Below, one piece after another: positions 2,476 to 26,384 of a stretch of 39,449 nt of DNA. How positions within the stretch are numbered: position 1 is the first letter of the stretch; each line of letters opens with the position of its first letter. Under the pieces are notes generated by a model. The model did no database searches. It had not been told where the DNA came from and saw only the letters and a list, made by a program, of their open reading frames with translations. The translations under genes and the position numbers were made by a program. This DNA is from a virus, in IMG/VR virus record IMGVR_UViG_3300042352_000132, positions 1-39,449 of that record; one strand, 5' to 3'.

Positions 2476-3567
2476 ATGGAAACACAATTTTACAATATCA
2501 ACAATTTATCTAATGCCAAATTGTTTTATATGTTAGGCAGCATTACAAATGACTCCGTAAAGTTGTTTCGTAGAACACCAGCAGGCGATGAAGAATTTAA
2601 TAGACACGAGTTACGCCGTATGCCTGATGGCAGACTACTGATTGCGTTTCATAGTTACTGGGCTAACAGGACAACACATAGTTTGGTTGCTAAATGTGGC
2701 AGCCAAGAAGAATTTGTTAATGTGCAACCGTTTGAACGCATAGCCCCATATTGGAATACTGGAACCTCTTTTGACAACAAAGGCGTATTTTGTTTTTTAG
2801 ATTCACAACCAATACATGACCCAAAAGATGAATGGCGTTGCGATACAACATCATACGGACCATTAAAATACTTAGGTAAAAATGAACAACGAAGAACTTT
2901 GTTGTCTGAACTCGCTCAAATAAAAGTTTATGAACCAATTATTTCTATTGGTGGTGTCGGAAACATTGTTTATCTGCATCGCAATGAGGATGAAAACATC
3001 AGAGATGTTGTTGTTAATGCTGAAGAAGTACCTGCTTTTACAGTTACATTATCCGAAATGTTTCGCCTATTAACCGAATGGGCTACTCTGGCTGAGCCAC
3101 CGTTTAATAGTACCGACCCAATTGTTATTGATGCTAAAGAGTTCCTTAACCAAATAAGTTTTGATGGTTCACTGGTTGCTGACCAAACCAATATGCAAGT
3201 AGCACAGTATTTCTTAGGTAACACAGATGCCCGTAGGCGACCTGCCGATGTTGTTGACAATAACCAGGCTTTGCTTAGGTTTGTTAAAAGCAAAATGGCT
3301 CACATGTCACTCGCTAATTTGCTGTCTTGCTATCCAGAATACGGAAATCTTGACGCTGCAATCCAGTTTGATATTGACTCTGCTGACCAAGAATTTATCC
3401 ACAATCTTGGAATTGCAAAAATTGAAGGAGATTTTTCTTTAGATAACTATGAAGATGCTTTAGATTTAATTCCTGACAATCGTGCTAATGAAAAAGAATT
3501 TTACAAATTTAAGTGGGGCTTATTGAAACGCAAAAAAGATTTGGCTTTAGTATTGGCTAACCAATGA
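2476..3567 (+). CDS. Unknown protein encoded next to glycosyltransferase
   Basis: A 363-residue soluble protein preceded by a good ribosome binding site (AAAGGGGAAATT before ATG). I do not recognise the family. It has no signal peptide or membrane segment, is rich in Asp/Glu/Asn, and its C-terminal third looks helical. The stop codon overlaps the ATG of the glycosyltransferase (ATGA), so the two are translationally coupled and may work together, for example in modifying the fibres, but that is inference only. Confidence 0.75.
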   Translation: METQFYNINNLSNAKLFYMLGSITNDSVKLFRRTPAGDEEFNRHELRRMPDGRLLIAFHSYWANRTTHSLVAKCGSQEEFVNVQPFERIAPYWNTGTSFDNKGVFCFLDSQPIHDPKDEWRCDTTSYGPLKYLGKNEQRRTLLSELAQIKVYEPIISIGGVGNIVYLHRNEDENIRDVVVNAEEVPAFTVTLSEMFRLLTEWATLAEPPFNSTDPIVIDAKEFLNQISFDGSLVADQTNMQVAQYFLGNTDARRRPADVVDNNQALLRFVKSKMAHMSLANLLSCYPEYGNLDAAIQFDIDSADQEFIHNLGIAKIEGDFSLDNYEDALDLIPDNRANEKEFYKFKWGLLKRKKDLALVLANQ

Positions 3568-17997: not shown

Positions 17998-18263
17998 AAC
18001 ACTGGCAAGACGATGCGCATTGCAAAGGGTTAGACCCCAACATATTTTTTCCTGAAGTGTTCGGTGACCAACAGAACGGAATGATATGGGAGCAGGCTAA
18101 AAGAATATGCCGTGCGTGTCCCGTCACTGATGAATGTCTTAAGTCCGAACTTGCCTTTGAGCAGGTGAGTGGTCGGCGTAACGGTATGTGGGGTGGACTC
18201 ACACCTAAAGAGCGGGAGCAGTATGCCCGCAACCCCATGAACATACGCATGAAGAAGCCCTAG
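17994..18263 (+). CDS. whiB: WhiB-like iron-sulfur transcription factor
   Basis: GTG 17994 gives an 89-residue protein beginning KHWQDDAHCKGLDPNIFFPE. It has the four cluster-binding cysteines in WhiB spacing (Cys10, Cys39, Cys42, Cys48; CRACPVTDEC) and the GMWGG turn (64-68), followed by a basic tail ending RMKKP. WhiB proteins are confined to Actinobacteria and their phages. They hold a [4Fe-4S] cluster and bind sigma-A region 4 to redirect transcription; phage versions can affect host septation and superinfection. A GTCTTAAGTC palindrome lies within the gene. It is the last rightward gene before a terminator. Confidence 0.92.
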   Translation: MKHWQDDAHCKGLDPNIFFPEVFGDQQNGMIWEQAKRICRACPVTDECLKSELAFEQVSGRRNGMWGGLTPKEREQYARNPMNIRMKKP

Positions 18264-20177: not shown

Positions 20178-20231
20178 ACCGTAACACAGTTCATGTTACT
20201 TGTCAAGTCTTTTCTTTGTGACTTTGGTCAC
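20178..20231 (-). promoter_or_regulatory. Promoter P5 with CRP/GlxR-type site
   Basis: On the minus strand: TGTGAC-N4-GTCACA (core 20218-20231), 11 bases, TTGACA (20206-20201), 17 bases, TACGGT (20183-20178). The spacer holds GTAACA-N7-TGTTAC. The first gene (start 20133) has an intervening leader hairpin ATCAAG...CTTGAT. Confidence 0.8.
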
Positions 20232-20392
20232 ACCATCAGACTCAAGTCAGGACGGGTAACCCGTTGAACCTGAACATCTTGATAGCCGTCCGATATAAAT
20301 TCACTGGCGATTGCTACCGCCTCTGTCCATAGAAGGTAAAAGTCATTGACTTCTACACCCCCTACCCACACCGTGTACTTCTGTGTACTCAT
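20228..20392 (-). CDS. Unknown 54-aa protein
   Basis: MSTQKYTVWVGGVEVNDFYL, then LWTEAVAIASEFISDGYQDV and QVQRVTRP. A compact beta-alpha-beta module like the other small proteins of this operon (strand, helix starting with TEAVAIA, strand). The ATG overlaps the stop of the upstream gene (ATGA). Its 3' end runs into the CRP-type site of promoter P5. Confidence 0.62.
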   Translation of the reverse strand: MSTQKYTVWVGGVEVNDFYLLWTEAVAIASEFISDGYQDVQVQRVTRPDLSLMV

Positions 20393-20985: not shown

Positions 20986-21039
20986 ACTCTATCATACTGT
21001 TAGACAGTTGTCAAGGGTATTCTTTGTGACTTCCGTCAC
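20986..21039 (-). promoter_or_regulatory. Promoter P4 with CRP/GlxR-type site
   Basis: TGTGAC-N4-GTCACA (core 21026-21039), 11 bases, TTGACA (21014-21009), 17 bases, TAGAGT (20991-20986), preceded by TGA so it is an extended -10. The spacer contains the palindrome ACTGT-CTA-ACAGT. Confidence 0.85.
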
Positions 21040-21049
21040 ACTCACTCAA

Positions 21050-22018: not shown

Positions 22019-22073
22019 ACTCTATCAACCGTGTAACGGTATGTCAAGCCTTTATAGTGTGACTTTCGTCACT
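22019..22073 (-). promoter_or_regulatory. Promoter P3 with CRP/GlxR-type site
   Basis: AGTGAC-N4-GTCACA (core 22059-22072; one mismatch to TGTGA-N6-TCACA), 11 bases, TTGACA (22047-22042), 17 bases, TAGAGT (22024-22019) as extended TGATAGAGT. The spacer contains ACCGT-TAC-ACGGT. Confidence 0.82.
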
Positions 22074-22860: not shown

Positions 22861-22901
22861 TGTGTAGCCCCTTCAGACTTGTTGGTAATCTGCCATCATC
22901 A

Positions 22902-22939
22902 GGCACAGTAGATTAGTTCTGTGCTATCCCTCACGGGAT
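22902..22939. repeat. Pair of hairpins between two leftward genes
   Basis: GCACAG-N10-CTGTGC (22902-22923) and ATCCC-TCAC-GGGAT (22926-22939) lie in the 84-base gap between genes at 22945 and 22860. They could attenuate or stabilise the leftward transcript. No T-run follows on the minus strand. Confidence 0.5.
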
Positions 22940-22944
22940 TTCGG

Positions 22945-23052
22945 CTAGTCTTCTTCTCCTTCTTCCCAGTCGTGGCAATCTCCCGACCCCTCGCAAGGTT
23001 CCTCGCATAGTTCCCACACTGTGTATTTCATTCCACATTCGTAGCACTTCAT
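22945..23052 (-). CDS. Cys-rich microprotein, 35 aa, first gene of leftward operon
   Basis: MKCYECGMKYTVWELCEEPC, then EGSGDCHDWEEGEED. Five cysteines and one His suggest a zinc site; the tail is very acidic. The ribosome site is GAAAGGGAAAAT. Two promoters (P1 and P2) lie directly upstream, which supports a real gene despite the length. Confidence 0.62.
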   Translation of the reverse strand: MKCYECGMKYTVWELCEEPCEGSGDCHDWEEGEED

Positions 23053-23078
23053 ATTTTCCCTTTCGTTATGTTGTTATC

Positions 23079-23132
23079 ACTCTATCAAGTGTTACACACT
23101 TTGTCAAGTTATTTGTATGTGACTTTTGTCAC
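23079..23132 (-). promoter_or_regulatory. Promoter P1 with CRP/GlxR-type site
   Basis: TGTGAC-N4-GTCACA (core 23119-23132), 11 bases, TTGACA (23107-23102), 17 bases, TAGAGT (23084-23079) as TGATAGAGT. The spacer holds the perfect palindrome AAGTGT-GTA-ACACTT (23087-23101). Confidence 0.85.
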
Positions 23133-23175
23133 ACTCTCAGTGTTCCTATTTCTAGGGCTTCACCTTGATAAATCA

Positions 23176-23229
23176 AGTGTAACACAGTACCGAACAGATG
23201 TCAAGTCAATTCCATGTGACATCCGTCAC
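23176..23229 (-). promoter_or_regulatory. Promoter P2 with CRP/GlxR-type site
   Basis: TGTGAC-N4-GTCACA (core 23216-23229), 11 bases, TTGACA (23204-23199), 17 bases, TACACT (23181-23176). A hairpin CTTGAT-TT-ATCAAG lies just downstream. P2 is in tandem with P1. Confidence 0.8.
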
Positions 23230-23239
23230 ACCAACCAAG

Positions 23240-24119
23240 AGTCTGTGACTGTTCATGAAGAGTTCCCGACTGTCCCCAACATCTAAGTGCAAACTATTGC
23301 AAGCACTAGGCGGTCCTGTTGTTAGCAGACGAAGAGCCGTGTCAGTTTTGTAGAGGGACTTGGTAGATGTTCGGTGGCTCTGCCTACCTTCTGGTAGGTA
23401 GTTGCAGGGTGCAAGTAATCATTTAGTTAGTTGTGGTGTGCAAGTTTTGTGTGAACTGGGGCTATGCCGAGGCGCGCCCCCTGAGTACATCTAGTATTGA
23501 GACAAATATAGAACCACTCTTTTGCTGGGTGTGTGGTTGGGTGTCACTGTGTGTGGTGGCTCATCACTCTCTGTGGTGTTATACGGTTGGGGGAGGAGGG
23601 AGGAGGAGTCTCCAAACTGGAAAGTCACCTGCTTAAGTTGGCAAGGAAAGAAAAAAAAGAAATCCACCGACTTGGAAGTTGGCGCTGGCTTTATTTCTTG
23701 CTTCTATGCAAACAACCGCTGGCGTAGCCAAGGGCGTTAGCCGCTTTAGCGGAACCTGATGACTGGCAGACTGGGTTTAGCCTCCCCCACGGTTTAGGTA
23801 TCACATTGATACCAAGGTCGCCGTAGCCAAATTCTTTTAGCCGACACCTGAAAGGTTGAACATATGTCGTTGTTCACGCTGCTTGAATCTCTTACACAAC
23901 AAAACAAGGGGTACATAACGGTCTTGTCTGATTGCAGGATTCATCTACCCCAGTTCCCTGGTGTGAATTGCCCCGTACCATGCAAACGGTATACAGCCAT
24001 GATTGGTATTTCCCCCTGCAACAAAAGCAATATGACACAGGGGGACAACCCAATTGTTACTTCACGAGAGCATAAACCAATGAAGTAACTATGTGTCAGA
24101 AACTCTACACCCTGTCTGA
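23240..24119 (+). ncRNA. Candidate large structured non-coding RNA, about 0.9 kb
   Basis: No convincing coding frame exists here, but many strong hairpins do: AGAGCC/GGCTCT (23332-23381), a 9-bp stem with TTCT loop (23380-23401), GGGGC/GCCCC (about 23458-23480), CCGC-TTTA-GCGG (23741-23752), GGTATC-ACATT-GATACC (23797-23813), GGGGTA/TACCCC (23908-23951), TCCCCCTG/CAGGGGGA (24011-24045) and GTTACTTCA/TGAAGTAAC (24056-24089). Several stems gain G-U pairs only if the plus strand is the RNA. Size, hairpin density and phage setting resemble GOLLD or ROOL RNAs, but I cannot match a consensus. Ends are approximate. Confidence 0.55.
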
Positions 24120-24131
24120 TACTCTTGCAAC
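24117..24131 (+). promoter_or_regulatory. Extended -10 promoter for leaderless gene at 24132
   Basis: TGATACTCT (hexamer TACTCT at 24120-24125) is followed by exactly 6 bases and then ATG, with no Shine-Dalgarno. The transcript would start on the start codon. Confidence 0.5.
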
Positions 24132-24398
24132 ATGCCAACAGAAAAAGATTCTCGTTTAAAACGGGCAGGCGTTTCAGGATACAACCAACCTAAAGCCACC
24201 CCTAAGCACCCAACTAAATCTCATGTGGTTGTAGCCAAAGTGGGCGACCAGATTAAAACGATACGGTTCGGACAACAAGGAGTCACAGGTTCCCCTGACG
24301 GGTCTAAGCGTAATGAAGCGTTCAAAGCCCGCCATGCTTCTAACATTGCTAAAGGAAAAATGTCTGCTGCGTATTGGGCTGACAAAGTTAAGTGGTAG
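24132..24398 (+). CDS. Conserved phage protein upstream of terminase, 88 aa
   Basis: The basic product contains VVVAKVGDQIKTIRFGQQGV, TGSPDG and FKARHASNIAKGKMSAAYWA followed by DKVKW. The pattern IRFGQQGV-GSP and FKARHA-NIAKGKMSAAYWADKVKW is a conserved family in many aquatic phages. The function is unknown; high basic charge and a position next to terminase would suit a DNA-packaging or virion role. Appears to be leaderless. Confidence 0.78.
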   Translation: MPTEKDSRLKRAGVSGYNQPKATPKHPTKSHVVVAKVGDQIKTIRFGQQGVTGSPDGSKRNEAFKARHASNIAKGKMSAAYWADKVKW

Positions 24399-24410
24399 AA
24401 TAAAACCTAC
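24393..24410 (+). promoter_or_regulatory. Extended -10 promoter before terminase
   Basis: TGGTAGAAT (TAGAAT at 24396-24401) ends 9 bases before the terminase ATG. No Shine-Dalgarno lies between, suggesting a leaderless or nearly leaderless transcript. Confidence 0.45.
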
Positions 24411-26384
24411 ATGGGAACAAAACGAATTGTTCCAGTACAAGACAAAGTTAAGTTCTTTGCTCTCATTTCCGCTGGACGAAACATTAAAGACGCTTGCGCT
24501 GAGGCGGGTATCCACTACAACACAGGTAGTAGATGGGTTAAGAAAGCAAAAGAACTAGAAGCAGGGCATAAGTCGGCTGTCCATAAAGCCGCTACTGGTG
24601 CTGGCTCTGGTGGTCGCCAAGAACTACAACACATGAACTTCATGGATGCCATTGATATGCCATCCGCTATCCCCCATGACATGCTTTCCGAGGAAGCGTT
24701 ACGAGGGTTGGAAGATTTTGATTACTTTCGTCGCCGCTATCTAGGGCGAGTTCCAAGTCCGTGGCAAGTTGAAGCCGCTGTGACTCTTGTAAAACTGTTG
24801 GAGTCCGAAGAAAAAGAATTTGTAGTAATTAATGTCCCACCAGGAGCAGGCAAGTCCACCTTGTTTCATGATGTAGCGGTGTGGGCGATAGTGCGCAACC
24901 GACGGGTGCGTGTCATGATTGGGTCAGTGTCTCAAAACATGGCGAAGATGTATTCCCGCCGTATCCGTGAAACTCTAGAACGAGTATCACCAATTCTCCC
25001 AGACCCAGGCATGGTTCAAAAGGGATTAGCAATAGATGCAGAAGGATGTTTAACAATTGACTACGGAAGATTCAAACCAGTGGACAAAGGGGCGCTTTGG
25101 CGTGCCGATGAGTTCGTCGTGGAGCAACTTGACGGAAATGGTTTGGACAACAAAGAGCCAACTGTCCGTGCATACGGAATTGAAGCAGAGTTCATTGGGC
25201 ACCGAGCCGACCTATGCCTCTTTGACGATGTTGCCTCACCTGACAATGCGAGAGAAAGCGTGGCTAGGGACAAACTTCTGGAAAGATGGGACGGAGTGGC
25301 AGAAGCCCGTTGCGACCCAGGCGGGTTGTTGGCTGTTGTCGGGCAAAGACTCGGTTCGGGGGACCTTTACGCTCATTGTCTCGCCAAAGAAACATACGAC
25401 ATTGAAGAAGATATCAATTACGATGGGGCAGATGTCCATACCCCTGAAGATGTATTTGAAGGTGTACCAGTACGGCAAAAAAAGTACCGACATATTGTCT
25501 ATCAAGCGTATTATGAAGACCTTGACACGGGTAAAGAATCTCGTTCTTTCAAATCTTTACCGTACCCAGACGGACCGCTACTAGACCCCAAGCGTCTACC
25601 ATGGAAAGACCTATCTTTCATCAGATACAACAAACCAGATGTATTCAAAGTTGTGTATCAACAAGAAGACCTGGACTTGGACTCTAAACTGGTACAACGC
25701 ACCTGGATTACTGGTGGCATAGGGCTAGATGGGGTGGACTACCCAGGATGTGTAGATGGTGACCGCCAACCAGGGTATATCCCTGAAGGATTAGCCCACC
25801 CGTGGGTATCTATCGTGGCTGTAGACCCCTCACCCACTATGTTTTGGGCGTTTGTCTGGATTATTTACCAGCCAAATACAAACCTTTACCATGTTGTAGA
25901 CATAGAACGAGTCAAACTATCCGCTGAAGAAGTCCTTGGATACGACACCATGACAGGTGAATACTCAGGACTGATGGACAGGATGCAGGAACGCTCATAC
26001 CAAATGGGCTACCCCATCTCACACTGGGTTGTAGAGATTAACGCAGCCCAACGGTTCCTTCTAGCGCACGACTTTGTACGCAAATGGCAAGCCTTGCACC
26101 GAGTCAATGTGATACCACACACCACAAGCCGAAACAAACTAGACGAATCCCTCGGTGTGGAAGCACTACTGCCAGCAGTTATCAGGTCAGGTGCACTACG
26201 CCTGCCTTCTATGAAGGGCAACTGGAAGACCCTTGCCGCTACAGATGAGTTAACTAAATGGTCACGAGATAAGAAACATGGCACCGACATTGTTATGGCA
26301 CTATGGATGGCTCTACTTAACTTGCCGAACCTCACCGAATCCAAACCACCACCCCGCCAATGGCGACCATCCTGGCTTAAGTAA
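24411..26384 (+). CDS. terL: Terminase large subunit with N-terminal HTH domain
   Basis: A 657-residue packaging motor. Residues 12-50 form a helix-turn-helix (FFALISAGRNIKDACAEAGI) like that of small terminase subunits. The ATPase has Walker A NVPPGAGKST (141-150) and Walker B LCLFDD (268-273). The C-terminal nuclease domain begins with IVAVDPSP (Asp near 472) and has DIVMALWMALL near 626. It cuts concatemers and drives DNA into the prohead through the portal, which is encoded next. No separate small subunit is evident. It ends close to a CTTAAG site. Confidence 0.92.
   Translation: MGTKRIVPVQDKVKFFALISAGRNIKDACAEAGIHYNTGSRWVKKAKELEAGHKSAVHKAATGAGSGGRQELQHMNFMDAIDMPSAIPHDMLSEEALRGLEDFDYFRRRYLGRVPSPWQVEAAVTLVKLLESEEKEFVVINVPPGAGKSTLFHDVAVWAIVRNRRVRVMIGSVSQNMAKMYSRRIRETLERVSPILPDPGMVQKGLAIDAEGCLTIDYGRFKPVDKGALWRADEFVVEQLDGNGLDNKEPTVRAYGIEAEFIGHRADLCLFDDVASPDNARESVARDKLLERWDGVAEARCDPGGLLAVVGQRLGSGDLYAHCLAKETYDIEEDINYDGADVHTPEDVFEGVPVRQKKYRHIVYQAYYEDLDTGKESRSFKSLPYPDGPLLDPKRLPWKDLSFIRYNKPDVFKVVYQQEDLDLDSKLVQRTWITGGIGLDGVDYPGCVDGDRQPGYIPEGLAHPWVSIVAVDPSPTMFWAFVWIIYQPNTNLYHVVDIERVKLSAEEVLGYDTMTGEYSGLMDRMQERSYQMGYPISHWVVEINAAQRFLLAHDFVRKWQALHRVNVIPHTTSRNKLDESLGVEALLPAVIRSGALRLPSMKGNWKTLAATDELTKWSRDKKHGTDIVMALWMALLNLPNLTESKPPPRQWRPSWLK

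Follow-up and report, generated by a model that had tools for sequence, protein, structure and literature searches.

The window, that is, the entire 39,449-nt stretch analysed here (IMG/VR virus record IMGVR_UViG_3300042352_000132), contains a region bordered by a leftward operon on one side and by rightward packaging genes on the other (Table 1). The first gene on the rightward side (24132-24398), coding for an 88-aa protein, has 70-76% DNA identity to genes in phages of Lentibacter, Roseobacter and Celeribacter, and it is followed by the gene for the large terminase subunit (TerL). The N-terminal residues 13-82 of TerL (window 24411-24660) match the small-terminase family phrog_4102 (E 4.7e-6) and, weakly, an HTH domain, a match that suggests that the enzyme carries a fused small subunit. 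The window also encodes a WhiB domain, as do 27 of the 28 near-complete records that bear the element described below (the window included); among 14 control genomes, Corynebacterium alone gives a WhiB match. Since WhiB is confined to Actinobacteria (PMC10202952), its presence in these 27 records indicates that the carriers of the element are actinophages, and from related phages in the literature we infer that they are of freshwater origin. Five CRP-like palindromes of the form TGTGACN4GTCACA, one of them with a mismatch, are found in the window (20217-20232, 21025-21040, 22058-22073, 23118-23133 and 23215-23230), where 0.17 would be expected by chance. Each lies ahead of a leftward gene or promoter, two of them directly preceding leftward TTGACA-17-TANANT promoters, and comparable palindromes precede the element in 30 of 76 relatives.

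Table 1. Positions of the RNA element, its structural parts and neighbouring genes in the window.
Feature	Position	Strand	Basis or remark
WhiB domain	18003..18221	+	E 7.7e-19
Structured RNA core	23305..24001 (5' end approximate)	+	conserved block in terminase-anchored alignment, profile matches
Putative closing stem, AGGC with GCC	23308..23311 with 23996-23998	+	predicted on 140-sequence alignment
Stem GAGCC / GGCTC, variable 5' domain	23334-23338 / 23376-23380	+	window letters
5'-domain hairpin CCUACC-UUCU-GGUAGG	23383..23398	+	
Stem CCTACC / GGTAGG	23383-23388 / 23393-23398	+	window letters
Conserved motif AACUGGGGnUnUGCCGAGGC	23454..23473	+	
Conserved motif yCACUCUUUUG	23514..23524	+	
CCGACTT, GG, then AAGTTGG	23667-23673 (CCGACTT)	+	window letters
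Small junction GCAAACAACCGCUGGCGUAGCCAAGGGCGUUAGC plus hairpin	23708..23751	+	
Extra covarying pair around helix a	23792-23819	+	
Helix a, hairpin	23797..23813	+	covarying
Helix GGU/ACC around near-invariant block GCCGUAGCCA...UUUUAGCCGACACC	23815..23849	+	
Helix d, hairpin	23858..23875	+	covarying
Helix e, 23884-23889 with 23938-23943	23884..23943	+	covarying
Helix f, nested in e, apical arm variable	23897..23934	+	model and sequence-only alignments
Helix g, CAG-UUCC-CUG, conserved loop	23947..23964	+	covarying
Helix h, conserved UGCAA loop	23975..23992	+	covarying
Clade-specific linker with two perfect hairpins, replacing the usual 3'-extension hairpin	24011..24089	+	
Perfect hairpin TCCCCCTG / CAGGGGGA	24011-24018 / 24038-24045	+	window letters
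Perfect hairpin GTTACTTCA / TGAAGTAAC	24056-24064 / 24081-24089	+	window letters
88-aa protein, phrog_7595, first gene after the RNA	24132..24398	+	
Large terminase subunit	24411..26384	+	phrog_38, E 2.4e-62

The original prediction had taken the region at 23240-24119 for a giant structured RNA because of its perfect stems. While these stems are present in the window at or near the positions given for them, they do not hold up as evidence of structure, since neither their counts nor the folding energy stands clearly apart from chance: 6, 13 and 17 of 100 shuffles contain as many perfect stems of 7, 8 and 9 bp, respectively, and the minimum free energy of the whole region has a z-score of -1.33 on the plus and -1.96 on the minus strand (20 shuffles). 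In the 3' domain the z-score is near zero, with the minus strand lower in energy, and thermodynamic folding is uninformative as proof of structure. The CCGACTT-GG-AAGTTGG stem is there, but it is not conserved among relatives and its 2-nt loop is sterically implausible. Near the GAGCC/GGCTC stem, relatives have different complementary arms, as judged by eye. Single-sequence stems alone do not establish a structured RNA; comparative evidence does.

Relatives were first collected by a terminase-anchored search of IMG/VR (80 loci), and most of the anchored loci with enough upstream sequence share a conserved block that ends sharply at window position 24001-24005 and is separated from the next gene by a variable linker. 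Many further loci came from a terminase-independent search with two DNA patterns made from conserved motifs. A profile matches the element in 249 IMG/VR loci (some being the same contig fetched twice), and 140 non-redundant full-length members have a median length of 737 nt. The structured RNA lies inside the region originally proposed, but the conserved element is narrower, ~23305-24001, and the long-loop hairpins at 24011-24089, although real in the window, fall outside the core. In most relatives the RNA extends ~60 nt beyond the core at its 3' side with one extra hairpin, which covaries across 22 distinct aligned relatives. Of 28 near-complete phage records, 27 carry the element as a single copy, and the remaining one has two weak matches. 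A protein-coding reading is ruled out, since no frame is kept across relatives: the four forward frames tested are open in at most 51 of 139 relatives, with non-triplet length changes in 79-95 of the 139, in agreement with the earlier view that the region holds no convincing gene.

Covariation was assessed on a tree built from the 140 sequences, using a G-test with average-product correction against alignments simulated with the same substitutions on the same tree, in the manner of R-scape but in our own implementation. At E<0.05, 27 of 191,271 column pairs are significant, about 21 of which are mostly standard pairs inside a few nested helices, the others being non-standard or register neighbours of true pairs; pairs in the 3'-domain helices reach E-values down to 2e-12. 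An alignment of 35 members made by sequence alone has 94.4% paired cells, two-sided changes in 23 of 39 pairs and a covariation score of 0.466, versus at most 0.138 with slid partners. The covariance model derived from it matches all 100 loci searched, and in the resulting model-fitted alignment of the 3' domain (100 sequences) 93.6% of cells are paired and 29 of 39 pairs have two-sided changes, with 834 such changes versus 279 in shuffles and a score of 0.510 versus at most 0.112 for slid controls. The pair that closes the helix around the near-invariant block (23815-23849) occurs in four Watson-Crick types among relatives. Aligning homologues and testing for covariation, the check proposed along with the original prediction, revealed compensatory changes beyond phylogeny, and this strong compensatory covariation bears out the giant structured phage RNA. 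Hairpin a often has GATACC on both arms; this direct repeat leaves two A-C mismatches at a point where one would expect a G-U intermediate (window 23797-23813 and loci L012, L013, L021 and L025).

The 5' half contains conserved motifs and a hairpin whose arms are replaced; its covariation is weak and its fold unsettled. At about the place of this hairpin, relatives have CAUAA-N6-UUAUG, CAUAAC-N4-GUUAUG or CCUAC/GUAGG arms instead. The sequence CACTC[TA]TTT occurs in 95 of 140 elements, a median of 306 nt ahead of AGCCGACACC. The GGGG of the motif at 23454-23473 may pair with CCCC at 23785-23788, and local covariation within the GGGG...CACUCUUUU block was looked for and not found. In the small junction, pairs 23711-23738 and 23712-23737 are significant for covariation, yet just 62-76% of their cells are standard pairs. 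The putative closing stem has 69-93% standard pairs and no significant covariation across the 140 sequences. Beyond the element, the 5' flanks of L026, L030, L032, L062 and others carry repeated small hairpins, AACAGTCnnCGACTGTT, and those of other loci a repeated GCAACnGAGGAACGAnGGCGnTAGC motif that is like part of the junction of the RNA itself (window 23713-23742).

Rightward transcription had been proposed from G-U pairs in the window, a claim that fares unevenly in the relatives. Counting only mismatches flanked by Watson-Crick pairs, G-U outnumbers A-C in helix d (20:1), helix f (11:0) and the 3' extension (10:1), whereas helix e is about even (2:4), hairpin a is opposite (0:23) and the minimum free energy is lower for the minus strand. 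Because of the G-U excess in the first three of these and the 100% shared orientation with terL, the element is likely, though not proven, to be transcribed from the plus strand. A search around the RNA for a rightward sigma-70-type promoter and a rho-independent terminator found neither, and no clear match to a phage-encoded sigma factor was obtained in 7 records. A promoter-like TGnTA box ahead of the first gene was also considered as a conserved feature but set aside as not general, since it lies at -15/-16 in only 24 of 121 non-redundant loci.

The original prediction left open whether the RNA is GOLLD, ROOL or a new class, and suggested a search with Rfam models for these two, introns and tmRNA. 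A cmscan of window 22900-24420 with all 4227 Rfam families, GOLLD and ROOL included, gave no credible match at E<=10; 13 divergent members likewise gave nothing at E<=1, and 20 loci gave nothing at the gathering score save an unrelated hammerhead in one locus. The latter is a type II hammerhead ribozyme on the minus strand of L066 (3374-3441; 49.5 bits versus a gathering score of 37), ~0.9 kb upstream of the element. A direct search of the window record with RF02032 was equally without match, as were the control genomes. Group I and II introns, tmRNA and RNase P are rejected, given no Rfam or ARAGORN match and an element that is intergenic and interrupts no gene; known packaging-RNA families of the phi29 pRNA type are likewise without an Rfam match. 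ARAGORN found no tRNA gene in the window or in 46 loci, and one tRNA in 32 further loci. Without a covariance-model match in the window or the relatives scanned and without adjoining tRNA genes, the element is by these tests a member of neither GOLLD nor ROOL, while the lack of any Rfam match together with covarying relatives fits the alternative of a new class.

Nothing like the element turned up in 50,697 phage and 72,556 plasmid records either (queries: the window, L061 and a three-member query), the matches of the window in known phages being confined to the downstream genes. Among 84,980 prokaryote genomes, the pattern search gave one match (L197), which neither the profile nor the model recognises as the element. 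Profile and model likewise found no copy in E7 and F5, two cultured Planktophila phages with a TerL of 24% identity. In OX376640 (L274, Planktophila phage LanE43-AprE7), a different conserved non-coding stretch of ~330 nt precedes terL (2783-3110); E7/F5 and their relatives carry this same stretch, and 57 aligned copies yielded one significant but non-standard covarying pair. A literature search, within the library it covered, found no paper naming such an RNA. We regard the element, with little doubt, as a large structured RNA of a new family and, among the giant phage RNAs, as a new class.

Giant structured RNAs are rare, most of them have no known function, and GOLLD and ROOL form RNA-only cages. 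In GOLLD (RF02032), which is ~800 nt long, the 3' region is conserved and the 5' region varies (PMC12286853). The element resembles it in giant size, in its setting in phages, metagenomic ones among them, and in this layout, which the conservation profile and the length distribution reveal here as well. It differs from GOLLD in the missing covariance-model match, in not being near tRNA genes and in its fixed position before the terminase. ROOL, too, is a phage or prophage RNA (~660 nt) with a function likewise unassigned, but the element does not match its model and is not near tRNA islands.

The position of the element is fixed. A TerL of the window type was detected in 229 loci and in every one of them follows the element in the same orientation, the median distance being 664 nt. 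Of the 184 loci that the patterns alone brought in, 164 share this arrangement, 14 break off too early to show it and 6 are without this TerL. Four of these six (L087, L124, L156 and L180) have instead, 2.6-3.4 kb beyond the element, a TerL that belongs to a different family (phrog_979), with a WhiB gene between RNA and TerL in L087 and L156; the remaining two are L106 and L191. The RNA is kept across a swap of terminase family. Taken together, positions 23305-24001 are a large RNA gene, and selection acts on both its sequence and its secondary structure across a broad group of actinophages that encode WhiB.

Why these phages maintain such an RNA can be approached from its position. That so many different actinobacterial phages, well over a hundred, keep a large folded RNA at this location implies a job that is probably important late in infection. 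In the picture we propose, rightward transcription at the head of the late block of packaging and head genes produces an RNA that folds with its 3' domain conserved and its 5' domain variable; late in infection it would then work in trans, serving as a stable scaffold or assembly in the way proposed for GOLLD and ROOL. We lean towards such a late RNA acting in trans, while holding the odds to be slightly short of even. Its large size and single copy, covarying 3' domain, lack of a conserved frame, retention beside a swapped terminase and GOLLD-like organisation speak for it. The 23 to 0 excess of A-C in hairpin a, the lower energy of the minus strand and the failure to find a promoter or terminator count against it, and a place at the front of the late genes is equally expected of a cis-acting leader.

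Because of this fixed position, the main rival is indeed that the element forms the 5' leader of the terminase mRNA, an untranslated region controlling late transcription (e.g. by processive antitermination) or processing. Like antitermination leaders of the put and EAR type, the element is a structured RNA at the start of an operon and on the same strand. Its upstream and co-directional placement is invariable wherever terL was detected, the longest intervening frames are co-directional as well, the first frame begins a median of 128 nt past the core, and the place is kept when the terminase family differs. However, known put and EAR-type leaders are far shorter than the ~700 nt with a near-invariant block found here, and the element matches no Rfam family. 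Moreover, the intervening sequence ranges in length from 57 to 3473 nt and holds anything from no gene to several, and conserved gene order alone could hold a trans-acting RNA in place too. On balance, a cis-acting leader seems a tenable but rather doubtful explanation.

Another scenario is that the element is a giant, non-homologous counterpart of phi29 pRNA that works with a terminase having a small-terminase-like N-terminus. Both are phage RNAs encoded beside packaging functions, terL is a universal neighbour, and the N-terminus of TerL matches the small-terminase family phrog_4102. Yet the element is about four times longer than pRNA, matches no Rfam family and persists beside the phrog_979 TerL in four loci; its retention with two terminase families argues against strict co-evolution or pairing with one packaging enzyme, and we consider a packaging RNA of this kind quite unlikely. 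Finally, the proximity to the terminase, the many inverted repeats and the unexceptional folding energy of a transcript from either strand would be compatible with an element that works as DNA (an origin, or a site of packaging or recombination) and looks like a structured RNA because of its inverted repeats. The long-range covarying helix e, which encloses ~50 nt with conserved loops and internal loops, and the preference for G-U on one strand (41 to 2 over helices d and f and the 3' extension) make this highly improbable.

Whether acting in trans or otherwise, the element adds one more family to the giant RNAs: its distinct members number well above a hundred, it covaries strongly, and in actinobacterial phages its place is always ahead of the terminase gene. 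This place ties the RNA to late infection and, unlike at GOLLD and ROOL loci, makes its role testable; the covariance model and the boundaries suffice for transcribing the RNA and attempting its structure. A more far-reaching and, in our estimation, unlikely proposal is that this new class of giant phage RNA, self-assembling or together with the packaging motor, plays a working role in the late stage of infection of abundant aquatic Actinobacteria. If true, phi29 pRNA would no longer be the only RNA machine in the assembly of tailed phages.
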